DNA of 46,840 nucleotides from an uncultured Bacteroidota bacterium (GTDB lineage Bacteria > Bacteroidota > Bacteroidia > 2-12-FULL-35-15): NCBI GenBank assembly GCA_903926385.1, contig CAIYIS010000018.1, positions 1 to 46,840 on the forward strand, given 5' to 3'. The notes beneath the pieces are model-generated. The model did no database searches, was not told the DNA's origin, and saw nothing but the letters and a program-made list of their open reading frames with translations. Position numbers and translations under genes: made by a program. This document shows positions 1,524 through 46,840 of the stretch, piece after piece (positions within the stretch are counted from its first letter, which is position 1; each line of letters opens with the position of its first letter).

Positions 1524-1789
1524 CAATCTGTTCCTTCGGATTGCATCAAACGAAAACTTTTAACCCAATTCGGACCTTTGGATTGCATCAAACGAAATGT
1601 TTTAACCCAATTCGGACCTTTGGATTGCATCAAACGAAATGTTTTGACCCAATTCGGACCTTCGGATTGCATCAAACGAAATGTTTTAACCCATTTCGGA
1701 GCTTCAGATTGTATAAAACGAAATATTTTGACTCAATTCGGACCTTCGAATTGGGTAAAACGATTTTTTTTGACAATAAAGTAAGTTTA
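1524..1789 (+). repeat. 42-bp tandem hairpin array 1
   Basis: Six units at an exact 42-bp step (GGATTGCATC-type anchors at 1538, 1580, 1622, 1664, with diverged copies at 1706 and 1748). Each unit can fold on the + strand as a 7-bp stem, 6-nt loop hairpin (1524-1543, 1566-1585, 1608-1627, 1650-1669, 1692-1711, 1734-1753) separated by 22 nt. Five of six stems pair fully although pairs 5-7 change sequence, with G-U pairs that hold only on this strand. The unit is a multiple of three, so reading frames stay open; the frame 1338-1784 gives a 14-residue repeat (PSDCIKRNVLTQFG) with several synonymous changes. A small repetitive peptide therefore cannot be excluded. Confidence 0.85.
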
Positions 1790-1853: not shown

Positions 1854-2825
1854 ATGGCAAATTCATGGCATTACTTCGTAAATCAAATGGACAACTGTAC
1901 AAAAAACAGTTTCAAAAAAGCAAAAAAACTATCGGATTATCATGATGCTGCTCTGTTGAGAGCCAAAAACGATAACCCTACCGACACCGATTATGCAACT
2001 GCATATTCCCGTTATCACATCTTGCATTTAGCATTTGTGGCTGCTTACATTTTGTGGCAAAGCAAAGGCGGAGCGCAAGAATCGGGCACATTAAACATCA
2101 AACAACTCATGTCGCTGATGACAGCAAAAATAAACCGTTGGTGGGGGCAAATAATAGTGATTTATGCTGCCGATACAACACGGTTTAAAGCCATTTTTCC
2201 CGATTTAAGAAATCCATTCAGAGTAGGCCCGCGCAATAGCCGCATAGCTGCAGTGGGCACTTTGAGCGCTAATATTGGTGCAGATGTAGCCCTATCGGCT
2301 ACCAAAACAGAAGTAGATGCTTATTATGCCCAACTGAACACCGCTAATACAGGGCAAACGGGAGACAAAACGGCTGTAGATACAGCCAGTGCAGCTTGCG
2401 AAGCAGCTCGCAAAGCAGCTATGGTAGGGCAGTTTCAAAACGTAGGGTTATTTATTAATAAAACACCCGACAATCCTTCTATCTATGCACATTTGTGGGA
2501 TGTAGAAACCATTACCAATCCGGCTCAAACCATTTGGAAAGGTCATTTGGATGTAAACGAAAATCATCAGGTATTTATTCACACATTTACTCCCGGTGAC
2601 GACCTTCGCCTGAAATGCGTTGGCGTTACATCGACAGATAAAATAGTGTTTTACCTGGCCAGCACACCCGGTGGCACCGACAGCGACCCTGTTACTGTTT
2701 TAATCAATCATCAACAAACCATAAATGTAACGGCTTTTAATGTTACCGATTACAGCACACATCGCTATTTAACCGTTGTAAACCAAAGCACAGGCGAAAC
2801 TCGCTTTATGGTGCAAATGTATTAA
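1854..2825 (+). CDS. Unknown protein, hairpin-array-associated family, member 1
   Basis: Function not recognised. It is 323 aa, with no signal peptide and no clear catalytic motif. The N-terminal ~100 residues are helical and Trp/Tyr-rich. A central segment (about 95-215) reads INRWWGQIIVIYAA ... FKAIFPDL ... YYAQLNTANTGQTGDKTAV ... AARKAAMVGQFQNVGLF. The C-terminal ~100 residues look beta-rich (VFIHTFTPGDDLRLKC, INVTAFNVTDYS). The order of features matches the 318-aa protein at 33428-34384 (MWRQMISNVYMP ... FTNLFPHG ... FYGLISSARGNQEGEKTLV ... YGVIVNLYPNEPTI), so I infer a remote homologue. ATG 1854 follows an A-rich leader about 65 bp after array 1. The gene probably shares the 1280-1306 promoter with the array. 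Confidence 0.8.
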   Translation: MANSWHYFVNQMDNCTKNSFKKAKKLSDYHDAALLRAKNDNPTDTDYATAYSRYHILHLAFVAAYILWQSKGGAQESGTLNIKQLMSLMTAKINRWWGQIIVIYAADTTRFKAIFPDLRNPFRVGPRNSRIAAVGTLSANIGADVALSATKTEVDAYYAQLNTANTGQTGDKTAVDTASAACEAARKAAMVGQFQNVGLFINKTPDNPSIYAHLWDVETITNPAQTIWKGHLDVNENHQVFIHTFTPGDDLRLKCVGVTSTDKIVFYLASTPGGTDSDPVTVLINHQQTINVTAFNVTDYSTHRYLTVVNQSTGETRFMVQMY

Positions 2826-14535: not shown

Positions 14536-14596
14536 AGATTTACTGTTTTCACCATTTTACTTTTTCTATTCTCCCCTTCTGGTGAAGATTTATAAA

Positions 14597-14867
14597 ATAA
14601 GGAAAGAGCTACTCAAATTGTAGCAAGAGAGGTTAAAATTGAGGAAAGATCGTCATGAAATTAAGAAAAAAAGGCCTTAATTTAGGAAAGAGCATCATAA
14701 AATTAAAAAGGAGAGGAATAAAATGAAGAAAGAGCGACCTTAATTTTAGAAAGAGAGGCTTAAATTCTAGAAAGAGAGGCTTAAATTCTAGAAAGAGCGA
14801 CATAAATTTATGAAAGAGCGACATGAATTTTGGAAAGAGAGACACAAAATTGGTCATAAAAGAGGTC
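14597..14867. repeat. 21-bp tandem array 3
   Basis: Roughly twelve units with a 21-bp step, drifting by a base in places. The best units are at 14750-14850, of the form AATTCTAGAAAGAGAGGCTTA, with variants GAGCGACAT for GAGAGGCTT. Minus-strand translation gives a 7-residue repeat (EFKPLFL, KFMSLFH), but there is no credible start, promoter or downstream gene in that direction, so I treat it as non-coding. It lies between the PLP enzyme and priA. Confidence 0.75.
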
Positions 14868-28328: not shown

Positions 28329-28404
28329 GGTGGCTGTAGTTCAGTTTGGTTAGAGCATCGGTTTGTGGTACCGAGTGTCGTGGGTTCGAGTCCCATCAGC
28401 CACC
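28329..28404 (+). tRNA. tRNA-His (GTG)
   Basis: Cloverleaf with acceptor GTGGCTG/CAGCCAC, D-arm AGTTCAGTTTGGTTAGAGC, anticodon loop with GTG, and T-arm GTGGGTTCGAGTCCCAT. The extra 5' G at 28329 (G-1) facing C at 28404 is the histidine identity feature. CCA is not encoded. Confidence 0.95.
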
Positions 28405-33427: not shown

Positions 33428-34384
33428 TTACAAAAACTCCACCGAATAATGTCCTTTGGTGTTTAAATCTAAATTATGGATTTGATACACACGATTTAGG
33501 AAATTACCAAGGTCGGGGAAAGCGGCTGTAGTAGGGGTGTTGGCAGGAATAAAAACTCCAACGGGATGTGCTTTGTTTTTGGCCGAATCGTTAACCCACA
33601 CTTGGCAATCTACATCGCAGGTAACTTTAATTTTAGTGGTTGGTGTCGATTTTTTAGTTGCTACCATTTTTATTTTATCACTATTTACAGTGCCTTCGTA
33701 CACATTGCTATGAACATGTGCCTGCATGGTAGCCACATCCACAAAGCTTTTGATTATGGTAGGTTCGTTTGGATACAGGTTTACGATAACGCCATAATCG
33801 GCAAAATGCTGAATACACATGGCTTCTATGGCAGCCTTTTGGTCGGCAATAGCCACACCTACCAGTGTTTTTTCGCCTTCCTGATTGCCTCGCGCAGAAC
33901 TTATTAATCCATAAAATGTAGTTATTAAAGTGGCCACAGCTGTTAAAGCCGCATCCAGATTGCATTTGTCGCGCAGCGTTTTTAGATGTAATAATTTATT
34001 TTCGATAGTTCCTTTGTAAAAATCGTCCATTCCGTGAGGGAAAAGATTAGTGAAGCCGGGAGTTCCGGGCATATACACATTGCTAATCATTTGTCGCCAC
34101 ATGGGCATTTTTTCTTGTGTCATTATCAAAAACAACTGGTCTTTGGCCTGAGTATCGCTCTTTCGGCTGCCGGCAGCACCATCTTTGGTGGACGAAGTAT
34201 TAACCACATTGGTATGAAAGGGAGTAAAAATAACTAATTGAGCGGCTATTGTAGTGTTCGAAGGCGCGGCTGCTGTTAGTGCATTAAAATGAAAAGTACT
34301 TACTTTAAGTGCAATGGTGTAGTTAGTACCTACTGCGCTGCGGACGAAATTTACGGCTGGTAGCCATTGATTAATTGCTGGCAT
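33428..34384 (-). CDS. Unknown protein, hairpin-array-associated family, member 2
   Basis: Function not recognised. 318 aa, no signal peptide. An N-terminal ~85-residue part is polar/beta-like. The helical centre (~88-215) reads MTQEKMPMWRQMISNVYMP, GFTNLFPHGMDDFYKGT, LDAALTAVATLITTFYGLISSARGNQEGEKTLVGVAIADQ, YGVIVNLYPNEPTIIKSFVDV. The C-terminal beta part is KIKVTCDVDCQVWVND ... VYQIHNLDLNTKGHYSVEFL. Order, lengths and spaced matches (WxQxI, FP, F..GT, YY/FYxxL, G.K..V, GLF/GVIV, P) align it with the 323-aa protein at 1854, at low identity. It is preceded by array 2 by about 80 bp, and followed by its own terminator. No adjacent enzyme gives a clue to function. Confidence 0.8.
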   Translation of the reverse strand: MPAINQWLPAVNFVRSAVGTNYTIALKVSTFHFNALTAAAPSNTTIAAQLVIFTPFHTNVVNTSSTKDGAAGSRKSDTQAKDQLFLIMTQEKMPMWRQMISNVYMPGTPGFTNLFPHGMDDFYKGTIENKLLHLKTLRDKCNLDAALTAVATLITTFYGLISSARGNQEGEKTLVGVAIADQKAAIEAMCIQHFADYGVIVNLYPNEPTIIKSFVDVATMQAHVHSNVYEGTVNSDKIKMVATKKSTPTTKIKVTCDVDCQVWVNDSAKNKAHPVGVFIPANTPTTAAFPDLGNFLNRVYQIHNLDLNTKGHYSVEFL

Positions 34385-34466
34385 ATTTATAAGTATTAGT
34401 TAATGTTAATTATTAATTGTTTTTTATTATTTGATGTTGTTACTATTTAAAAACTGTACTCCTTTT

Positions 34467-34702
34467 ACCTCCCTAAATGGGGAGGTGAGCAAAAATGTAT
34501 TTTTATTAACCTCTCTAAATGGGGAGGTGAGCAAAAACGTATTTTTATTAACCTCTCTAAATGGGGAGGTGAGCAAAAACGTATTTTTATTAACCTCCCT
34601 AAATGGGGAGATGAGCAAAAATCTATTTTTATTAACCTCTCTAAATGGGGAGGTGAGCAAAAATGTATTTTTATTAACCTCTCTAAATGGGGAGGTGAAT
34701 AA
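34467..34702 (+). repeat. 42-bp tandem hairpin array 2
   Basis: Six units at an exact 42-bp step (anchors 34468, 34510, 34552, 34594, 34636, 34678). Each has a 7-bp stem and 6-nt loop, ACCTCYC-TAAATG-GGGAGGT, then a 22-nt spacer with a weaker AAAAACGTATTTTT palindrome. On the + strand five of six stems pair fully (four with a U-G pair); on the - strand only two of six do. The + strand, antisense to the neighbouring gene at 33428, is therefore the better RNA strand. Both strands are open in frame (e.g. VNKNTFLLTSPFRE on -), a by-product of the length. Confidence 0.88.
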
Positions 34703-34780
34703 AACTCATTTTCCCCTCATTTTCCTTCAGAAATTTCTTTTCAAAACTCAAAGAACAGGTGTCGATTTGAAAAGATGATG

Positions 34781-34788
34781 CAAAGGAA
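34781..34788 (-). promoter_or_regulatory. Possible -7 box TTCCTTTG
   Basis: Minus-strand TTCCTTTG, one base from TAnnTTTG, upstream of array 2. If real, the array would lie in the leader of the gene at 33428. No good -33 element is seen. Confidence 0.3.
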
Positions 34789-34810
34789 AATAATTTTTTA
34801 ATAGCTTTTA

Positions 34811-34841
34811 CATTAGTGCGTTTGGCACTAATGTTTTTTTT
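34811..34841 (+). terminator. Orphan + strand terminator after array 2
   Basis: CATTAGTGC, loop GTTTG, GCACTAATG, then eight T. Perfect 9-bp stem. The T-run is only on the + strand side. No + strand gene precedes it, so it should end a transcript coming out of array 2. Confidence 0.85.
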
Positions 34842-46415: not shown

Positions 46416-46701
46416 ACCGGGTAAGGAGTCTTCCTTACCCGGTTTACCGTTCGCCTTACCCGGTTTACCGTTCGCCTTACCCGGTTTACCGTCTTCCTTA
46501 CCCGGTTTACCGTTCGCCTTACCCGGTTTTCCGTTCGCCTTACCCGGTTTTCCGTTCGCCTTACCTGGTTTTCCGTTCGCCTTACCTGGTTTTCCGTCTT
46601 CCTTACCCGGTTTTCCGTCTTCCTTACCCGGTTTTGCGTCCTCCCCGATCGGTTTTCCATTCTTTTCTTGGGAATTAAAAGAAGTGTGTGAGGGAAACTA
46701 A
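46411..46701 (+). CDS. Possible repeat-peptide ORF (low confidence)
   Basis: Starting at the GTG after AGGAGG, 96 codons encode MKPGKESS followed by ten 7-residue repeats, LPGLPFA or LPGFPSS type, and a unique tail (FFSWELKEVCEGN). A Shine-Dalgarno core is rare in this phylum, and the duplicated leader supplies the same signal to the next array. Against coding: the repeat length keeps frames open by default, and the spacing to GTG is too short for ideal initiation. Confidence 0.3.
   Translation: MKPGKESSLPGLPFALPGLPFALPGLPSSLPGLPFALPGFPFALPGFPFALPGFPFALPGFPSSLPGFPSSLPGFASSPIGFPFFSWELKEVCEGN
46414..46445. repeat. 14-bp inverted repeat at array 4a head
   Basis: AAACCGGGTAAGGA, loop GTCT, TCCTTACCCGGTTT: a perfect 14-bp stem formed by the first repeat and its reverse complement in the leader end. 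Confidence 0.85.
46432..46665 (+). repeat. 21-bp tandem array 4a
   Basis: About eleven units of 21 bp, CCTTACCCGGTTTACCGTTCG form. Each unit carries one of two variants at the same place, GTTCGCC or GTCTTCC, in the order second, first, first, second, four times first, second, second, then a degenerate end. Confidence 0.9.
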
Positions 46702-46704
46702 AAT

Positions 46705-46722
46705 TTTCGAGGAGGATGTGAA
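46705..46722 (+). repeat. Array leader, copy 2
   Basis: Identical 18 bp to 46398-46415, 307 bp away and directly ahead of array 4b. The GTG at 46718 opens a frame to the window end with a LGLPFAF/LGLPSSF repeat. Confidence 0.75.
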
Positions 46723-46840
46723 TCTTGGATTACCGTTCGCCTTTCTTGGATTACCGTCTTCCTTTCTTGGATTACCGTTCGCCTTTCTTGGATTACCGTC
46801 TTCCTTTCTTGGATTACCGTCTTCCTTTCTTGGATTACCG
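46721..46840 (+). repeat. 21-bp tandem array 4b (cut by window end)
   Basis: At least five and a half 21-bp units, CTTGGATTACCGTTCGCCTTT form, differing from array 4a at five of 21 positions throughout. The same two variants, GTTCGCC and GTCTTCC, occur in the order first, second, first, second, second. Confidence 0.85.

Follow-up and report, generated by a model that had tools for sequence, protein, structure and literature searches.

Members of one bacterial protein family are accompanied by a tandem DNA array with a step of 41 or 42 bp: a strong array of this kind lies upstream of 83 of 97 family genes and a strong array lies downstream of 4 of 106. The association of the family with the array, and the geometry of the array, are solid. 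The family–array pair points to an undescribed protein-plus-DNA module. Two of the genes, each with its array, lie in the window, which here means the whole stretch of DNA analysed, 46,840 nucleotides from an uncultured Bacteroidota bacterium. The features concerned are as follows.

1533–1753, plus strand: array 1, TRF period 42, 5.3 copies; the 1854–2825 gene starts 101 bp away
1854–2825, plus strand: paralogous family gene, 323 aa, 26% identical to the 318-aa protein
14592–14850, strand not given: array with a 21-bp step (42 and 63 also reported by TRF), a possible related element outside the core claim
33428–34384, minus strand: family gene, an open reading frame for 318 aa, with a helical N-domain containing an internal duplication (about residues 10–224) and a C-terminal beta-sandwich (about 228–318)
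34385–34466, minus strand: 82-bp gap from array to start codon, in which no promoter box is seen
34467–34698, minus strand: 42-bp array upstream of the 33428–34384 gene, TRF period 42, 5.5 copies, 95% matches
46428–46840, strand not given: arrays with a 21-bp step, similar to the array (contig C45, 289258) that lies downstream of a member of a second protein family

The preliminary description of this DNA had placed a 42-bp array before the gene at 33428–34384, and TRF bears this out, with the gene-proximal end 83 bp from the start codon. It had presented the two loci as unknown genes with arrays of unrelated sequence; the genes are in fact distant homologues (E 5e-19), and the sequence of array 1 has no second copy in its own genome at E ≤ 0.001. 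Read by eye, the unit of the window array is ACCTCyC-TAAATG-GGGAGGT followed by a 22-base spacer, that is, stem 7, loop 6, stem 7, and most units have one stem pair that is G-T or its A-C counterpart. The stem, loop and spacer first described are thus correct for this array, whereas array 1 yields a 7-bp stem and 6-nt loop by eye only if two G-T pairs are permitted. Copy number and distance to the start, noted as shared by these two loci, vary across the family.

Elsewhere in the window, the 14592–14850 array is purine-rich and directional, has no adjoining family gene or recognised partner and shows no dyad (P 0.99). It lies between open reading frames that we take, by eye, to be aminotransferase-like and PriA-like. 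The last 118 bp of the window recur unchanged at the beginning of contig C61, and the two contigs may join there. An Rfam scan of the window at gathering score returned a tRNA at 28330–28404 only, the array being without a match.

Distribution of the family and its arrays

Searched with the 318-aa protein, the own genome yields eight matches, the array 1 gene included, and profile searches bring the count there to 11. The first eight members all have an upstream array of TRF period 42, and most of these arrays look mutually unrelated. Nine of 36 genomes of the genus have the family; across the class it occurs in 25 of 395 genomes, from 10 of 196 genera, and weak matches come from three more genomes in other classes of the phylum. 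Some genomes carry at least 10 copies. The 395-genome searches took the best five candidates per genome (seven for PQLLE, treated below), so that copy numbers are lower bounds, and matches were collected in part. The resulting collection holds 110 distinct genes or fragments.

The upstream test covered 97 of these 110 after deduplication, two rows for locus L042 and 11 genes with less than 400 bp upstream being left out. All lags from 15 to 129 were scored over the upstream 900 bp, and a score of 0.70 or more was called strong. The best lag is 41, 42 or a near multiple in 90 of the 97 genes, including the strong cases counted above. The two-part system of gene plus array that had been proposed from the two window loci is upheld at this scale, with the amendment that the array can lie on the other side of the gene: at L125, L131, L138 and L139 a strong array is downstream and none is upstream. 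Ten of the 97 genes lack a strong array both upstream and downstream; eight of them retain a weak 21/42 step (0.54–0.65), and the lag test finds no such step, even weak, at L053 (a fragment) and L093. The family search and array tabulation that had been recommended show the same association in the further genera examined within the class, and a weaker one in other classes of the phylum.

No conserved neighbour gene accompanies the pair: the largest cluster of neighbours has 20 members in mixed positions. Upstream neighbours are divergent in 47 cases and co-directional in 48; downstream neighbours are co-directional in 59 and convergent in 49. Carriage by phages or plasmids was considered and rejected. 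Protein P0001 had no match in phages, two scans of viral contigs found no relative, and the L135, L143 and L142 proteins had no match in plasmids. Two scans of contigs from named organisms gave no relative either.

Equal frequency beside random genes had been named as the result that would speak against such a system. In 841 kb of the own genome, a 42-type array lies within 500 bp upstream of nine of nine family genes and of nine of 605 other genes of at least 100 aa (Fisher P 1.5e-15), and five of the latter nine merely face a family array from its far side. The same 841 kb contain 40 arrays of at least 100 bp with such a step, 14 of the 42-type and 26 of the 21-type, so that the geometry extends beyond the two window loci. 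Nine of the 42-type arrays are family-linked, two resemble a family array in sequence, one precedes a 220-aa protein with no Pfam or NCBIfam match and two fall outside these groups. Of the 605 non-family genes, 23 have a 21-type array upstream, and some arrays of this type sit between convergent genes. A candidate partner is seen for about six of the 26, namely three members of a second family and three single proteins, both listed below, the remainder having none; three of the 26 have 22/44- or 41/62/103-bp steps. These counts beside family and non-family genes link the 42-bp type to the family, the 21-bp step being distributed more widely in the genome.

L153:11444–11718 and L153:19270–19400: intergenic arrays slightly off 21 bp, with 41/62/103-bp and 22/44-bp steps
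L183:5940–6632, L164:8522–9223 and L150:958–1620: members of a second own-genome family, 220–233 aa
L151:13301–13933, L162:3165–3830, L160:15863–16771 and L178:13205–13867: single proteins with an upstream array

The second family has a 21-bp array directly downstream in three of three members sampled (at 33, 35 and 148 bp). The single proteins, of 210–302 aa and one with an fn3 domain, each have a 21- or 42-step array upstream and may represent further partner families.

The wider occurrence of the 21-bp step bears on the possibility that the arrays are a platform for some other host protein, nucleoid-associated or regulatory, which reads shape or phased repeats and for which the family gene is a regulated passenger. 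This is an unlikely explanation, though one to be taken seriously. It accommodates the 21-type arrays before non-family genes and between convergent genes, the cases in which very similar proteins have different arrays, and a protein of near-zero net charge in which no DNA-binding domain is seen. It does not lead one to expect the concentration of 42-type arrays beside the family, nor a window of the protein that predicts array similarity, nor the state of family-free genomes: G014 (same genus, 130 kb) and G074 (200 kb) contain no array of at least 100 bp with a 21/42-bp unit, and G014 has one two-copy duplication of 105 bp. Several 21/42-type arrays are present in G120 and G218 (200 kb each), where the family occurs. 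In G120, two of these arrays precede remote members (E 6e-9 and 7e-5); the other G120 arrays and those of G218 have no detected family member alongside.

The nearest named family is PQLLE (NCBIfam NF052641), which is a name only. Remote members from other classes match it (L143, E 2e-13; L142, E 6e-5), L143 with 50.4 bits against a curated cut-off of 80. The family and PQLLE profiles align over 160 columns (hhalign Prob 87.6, E 3.5e-6), with L142 and L143 as a bridge, and may share a remote ancestor. The PQLLE model itself matches none of 47 family members at E ≤ 1 and nothing in the own genome; because the model is not reached, the family is not filed under PQLLE. PQLLE-like genes occur in nine of 395 genomes of the phylum. 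An upstream array with a 21-, 41-, 42- or 63-bp step is found at 11 of 17 PQLLE-like loci, three of these arrays being short, and at five of the eight loci above the curated cut-off. In the literature searched, which mostly excludes subscription papers and preprints, no paper on 'PQLLE' was found and none was recognised as describing such arrays.

Array structure, pairing and turnover

Among 81 upstream arrays the unit is 42 bp in 69 and 41 bp in 12. A coding repeat (42 bp being 14 codons) was rejected as a general reading, since a 41-bp unit would shift the frame with each copy. The arrays have a median length of 244 bp (5–95% range 121–334 bp) and a median distance to the start of 95 bp. Such variation in copy number between loci, in repetitive DNA near a start codon, could suit a cis-acting switch in which slippage alters the number of units to tune or toggle expression, with the constant step serving only to hold the upstream DNA in helical phase. 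A switch of this kind is decidedly unlikely: it explains neither the half-unit dyads nor the resembling solo arrays described below.

Each unit contains a dyad, with pairing that peaks 2–7 bases from an unpaired centre. Taken singly and compared with column-shuffled units, it reaches P ≤ 0.05 in 32 of 69 42-bp arrays and 6 of 15 41-bp arrays, and in only 5 of 23 non-family 21-bp arrays. A second dyad lies at exactly 21.0 bp in the 69 42-bp arrays (pairing 0.489 versus 0.263, s.d. 0.021, at other offsets) and at 20.5 bp in the 41-bp class of 15 arrays (0.388 versus 0.239, s.d. 0.046). The dyads of the window array are likewise 21 bp apart. With dyads half a unit apart, the 42-bp unit amounts to two 21-bp half-units placed head to head; the 21-bp arrays are head-to-tail repeats. 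Since 21 bp corresponds to two turns of B-DNA, the half-sites fall on one side of the helix. The earlier suggestion that spacing matters while sequence is free is retained, and its single hairpin shape is replaced by a different invariant, a 21-bp half-step with dyads. A weak common consensus can be extracted from 70 arrays (score 371 versus 232–254 shuffled), part of which comes from related arrays.

The character of the pairing is informative. Stem mismatches divide almost evenly between G-T and A-C, at 73:77 (a count in which the broken locus L042 was entered twice) or 81:89 by column, and there is no skew between loci (P 0.88). A stem formed by RNA from one or the other strand would be expected to prefer one of the two mismatches. 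As there is no G-U bias on either strand, the pairing looks like that of double-stranded DNA rather than RNA. Double changes at dyad pairs restore pairing in 51 of 80 cases. One third is expected by counting, as three of the nine double changes of a Watson–Crick pair do so; this is a fairer yardstick than slid controls (18–37%), which lack the paired-column filter applied to the real dyad. Because double changes mostly restore pairing, pairing is kept, perhaps by palindrome-templated mutation.

Promoter boxes were sought by the consensus TAnnTTTG. They are enriched in the interval from array to start (17 versus 5.3 shuffled), though found there at only 15 of 80 loci, and show no enrichment upstream of the array (4 versus 6.0). 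Enrichment is also seen in the 300 bp that follow the genes (28 versus 13.0).

In type III toxin–antitoxin systems such as ToxIN, an array of about six repeats stands before the gene. An RNA module of this type, in which the array would be transcribed and the repeat RNA would bind the protein, is suggested by a like layout at the family loci, where about six short units in tandem precede a gene. Folded as RNA, the window array is also well structured (z −5.6 for the gene strand and −8.4 for the opposite one), as tandem palindromes are. The family departs from this model in the absence of an RNA pairing signature, in having no match to a PADLOC defence model among 47 members and in arrays that may be downstream. 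Further, recognisable promoter boxes come after the array rather than before it, the dyad is significant in few 21-bp arrays, and the gene strand has no terminator-like site in the interval from array to gene. An RNA module is accordingly the least probable explanation, and very improbable.

Array sequence changes much faster than the protein. Array similarity exceeds the shuffled 99% point in four of five pairs of proteins more than 90% identical, in 26% of 50 pairs at 50–70% identity and in 3–7% of pairs below 40%. Even very similar proteins differ in their arrays: the paralogues L133 and L135 (91% identical) have an array similarity of 0.63, which is partial, and L107 and L108 (94%) one of 0.57. 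L084, L107 and L108 are all about 94% identical. L084 and L108 have the N-terminal 60 residues and the array unit in common; L107 is as L108 in the remainder, with both its N-terminus and its array different, a pattern in which linkage and specificity are inseparable.

Arrays without a family gene can resemble gene-linked ones. A solo array on contig C39, between two divergent genes, is 78% alike over 249 bp to the window array and 76% over 308 bp to the array of a paralogue, so that neither of the two is closer to it. The arrays at window positions 46428 and 46723, on C61 and at C48 106936 are 75–94% alike to the second-family array at C45 289258; C48 135720 is 69% alike to C45 242827, and C45 62584 is 88% alike to C45 97048. 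Flanks were compared for seven pairs. The solo array C48 36587, 86% alike to the L002 array, has about 100–125 bp of flank in common with it on one side; the C45 pair has a common flank of only 10–20 bp. Just upstream of the L002 array, L002:2795–3205 holds a 168-bp repeat in 2.4 copies, part of which is common to C48 36587.

These resemblances, with the one common flank, would be natural for a repeat of selfish or mutational origin, such as a minisatellite or a MITE-like sequence, which spreads, homogenises and has come to lie near the family genes by accident; palindrome-templated mutation could then be the source of the compensatory changes. A precedent is BrickBuilt of Porphyromonas gingivalis, a minisatellite within a MITE (PMC4596501). 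Its 23-nt repeat with inverted-repeat ends occurs 19 times in one genome (PMC4596501). The likeness lies in intergenic tandem repeats at many sites of one genome; the difference is that BrickBuilt has one repeat sequence and inverted-repeat ends and, in the abstract, no named partner gene. Intergenic tandem repeats are also treated for Planctomycetota (PMC9426551). An element of this sort leaves unexplained both the association with the family over 10 genera and the single step shared by unrelated sequences, and is improbable, a shade more so than the cis-acting switch.

The protein and its covariation with the array

Searches against Pfam (eight members, E 0.1), NCBIfam and PADLOC (47 members each) gave no usable family match. 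No DNA-binding domain is recognised in the family. A replication initiator domain has no Pfam match in eight members at E 0.1, and a tyrosine transposase (Y1) domain has none in Pfam or NCBIfam. For a ToxN-type toxin there is no PADLOC, Pfam or NCBIfam match, and the fold search is dominated by the beta-domain. Matches among PHROGs are single-member groups (best E 0.004) and were set aside, as were viral fold matches of low coverage or to the beta-domain only.

An AlphaFold2 model built from eight own-genome sequences (pLDDT 83.6, pTM 0.55) predicts a bundle with long helices at 44–103 and 145–203, followed by the beta-sandwich; a model from the two window proteins alone (pLDDT 39.8) was left out. 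The two bundle halves are related (hhalign Prob 90.8, E 1.2e-6, 76 columns). Structural matches to the beta-sandwich include PirA and further jelly-roll-like domains (Z 11.3, 89 residues, rmsd 2.3), which speaks to fold and not to function. In the PDB the helical bundle matches the ligand-binding domain of McpS (Z 9.4, 194 residues, rmsd 4.8), at a level that helical bundles reach by chance. Some relatives have a different C-terminal tail or none. Two further ideas were discarded: a basic DNA-binding surface, the median net charge of the N-domain being just +1, and a rule by which half-size proteins go with 21 bp and full-size proteins with 42 bp, L141 and L142 being full-size with 21-bp steps.

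Given overall identity, array similarity is best predicted by residues 185–208 (partial correlation 0.38; permuted 95% point 0.30) in 151 pairs of at least 40% identity, which are not independent because of phylogeny. Lower peaks, none significant singly, occur at residues 1–32, 81–104 and 121–160. A period of about 108 residues, close to the internal duplication, is seen in the covariation profile (r 0.59 at that offset; 0.33–0.50 with other cut-offs), and covariation is somewhat higher in fast-changing windows (correlation −0.38 with conservation). These patterns give a modest hint that matching ends of both bundle halves may meet the array.

A proposed protein–DNA module

The single likeliest reading, adopted tentatively, is that the array is a helix-phased platform of double-stranded DNA bound by the product of the neighbouring gene. 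One gene and one DNA array would form a self-contained two-part module, with the following steps. (i) The array would present sites 21 bp, or two helical turns, apart, all facing one side of the helix. (ii) In the 42-bp class adjacent half-sites would be oppositely oriented, as for symmetric protein pairs lying side by side. (iii) The gene's own product, through its duplicated N-domain, would most likely bind the array cooperatively and form an ordered row near the promoter. (iv) This row would control expression of the gene, and the protein would also bind the solo arrays that resemble its own. Computation shows the association, the 41/42-bp step, the half-unit dyads, the rapid turnover of sequence, the lack of an RNA-type mismatch bias and the resembling solo arrays; binding by a protein, its identity as the gene's product, the row and the regulatory effect are inferred from these.

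Binding by the gene's own product is favoured because of the association itself, the dyads at 21.0 bp, the mismatch symmetry, the placement of promoter boxes, the signal at residues 185–208 and the absence of a conserved neighbour gene. Counted against it are the missing DNA-binding domain, the net charge of +1, the differing arrays of L107 and L108, the downstream arrays and the partnerless 21-type arrays, together with the few gaps that contain a box, the box enrichment after genes, the significance of the dyad in 32 of 69 arrays and the single significant window of the protein.

A bolder version, rather unlikely, takes these pairs to be a widespread class of self-addressing nucleoprotein modules. 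Each helical protein would recognise an array sequence of its own within a locked geometry of 21-bp half-steps, direct or alternately inverted, and would assemble there as an ordered row. Solo arrays would be further addresses, and the up to 13 paralogues of a genome would constitute separate DNA-marking systems.

Two other known arrangements invite comparison. Autoregulated DNA-binding proteins can have operator or iteron arrays, helix-phased repeats of about two turns upstream of the gene. The family differs in having no known DNA-binding or replication domain, in the locus-specific sequence of its arrays and in reaching at least 10 copies in some genomes. A gene beside palindromic DNA, with further copies elsewhere, is also the arrangement of REP elements with RAYT genes; in the family no transposase domain is found, and the DNA takes the form of six-unit arrays, not single palindromes. 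No system known to us combines an array of free sequence, locked to the helix, with a protein of this kind.

Protein and array are each too little conserved in sequence to have been noticed alone. If the protein reads the array, the family would provide a large, undescribed set of protein–DNA pairs with a fixed spacing and a freely varying sequence, and with it a test of how specificity changes under a constant architecture and a supply of orthogonal pairs. Should some other protein be the reader, the arrays would bring to light a regulatory or chromosome-organising system not known before. In both cases a first testable context is provided for this uncharacterised family and for PQLLE, so far a name only.
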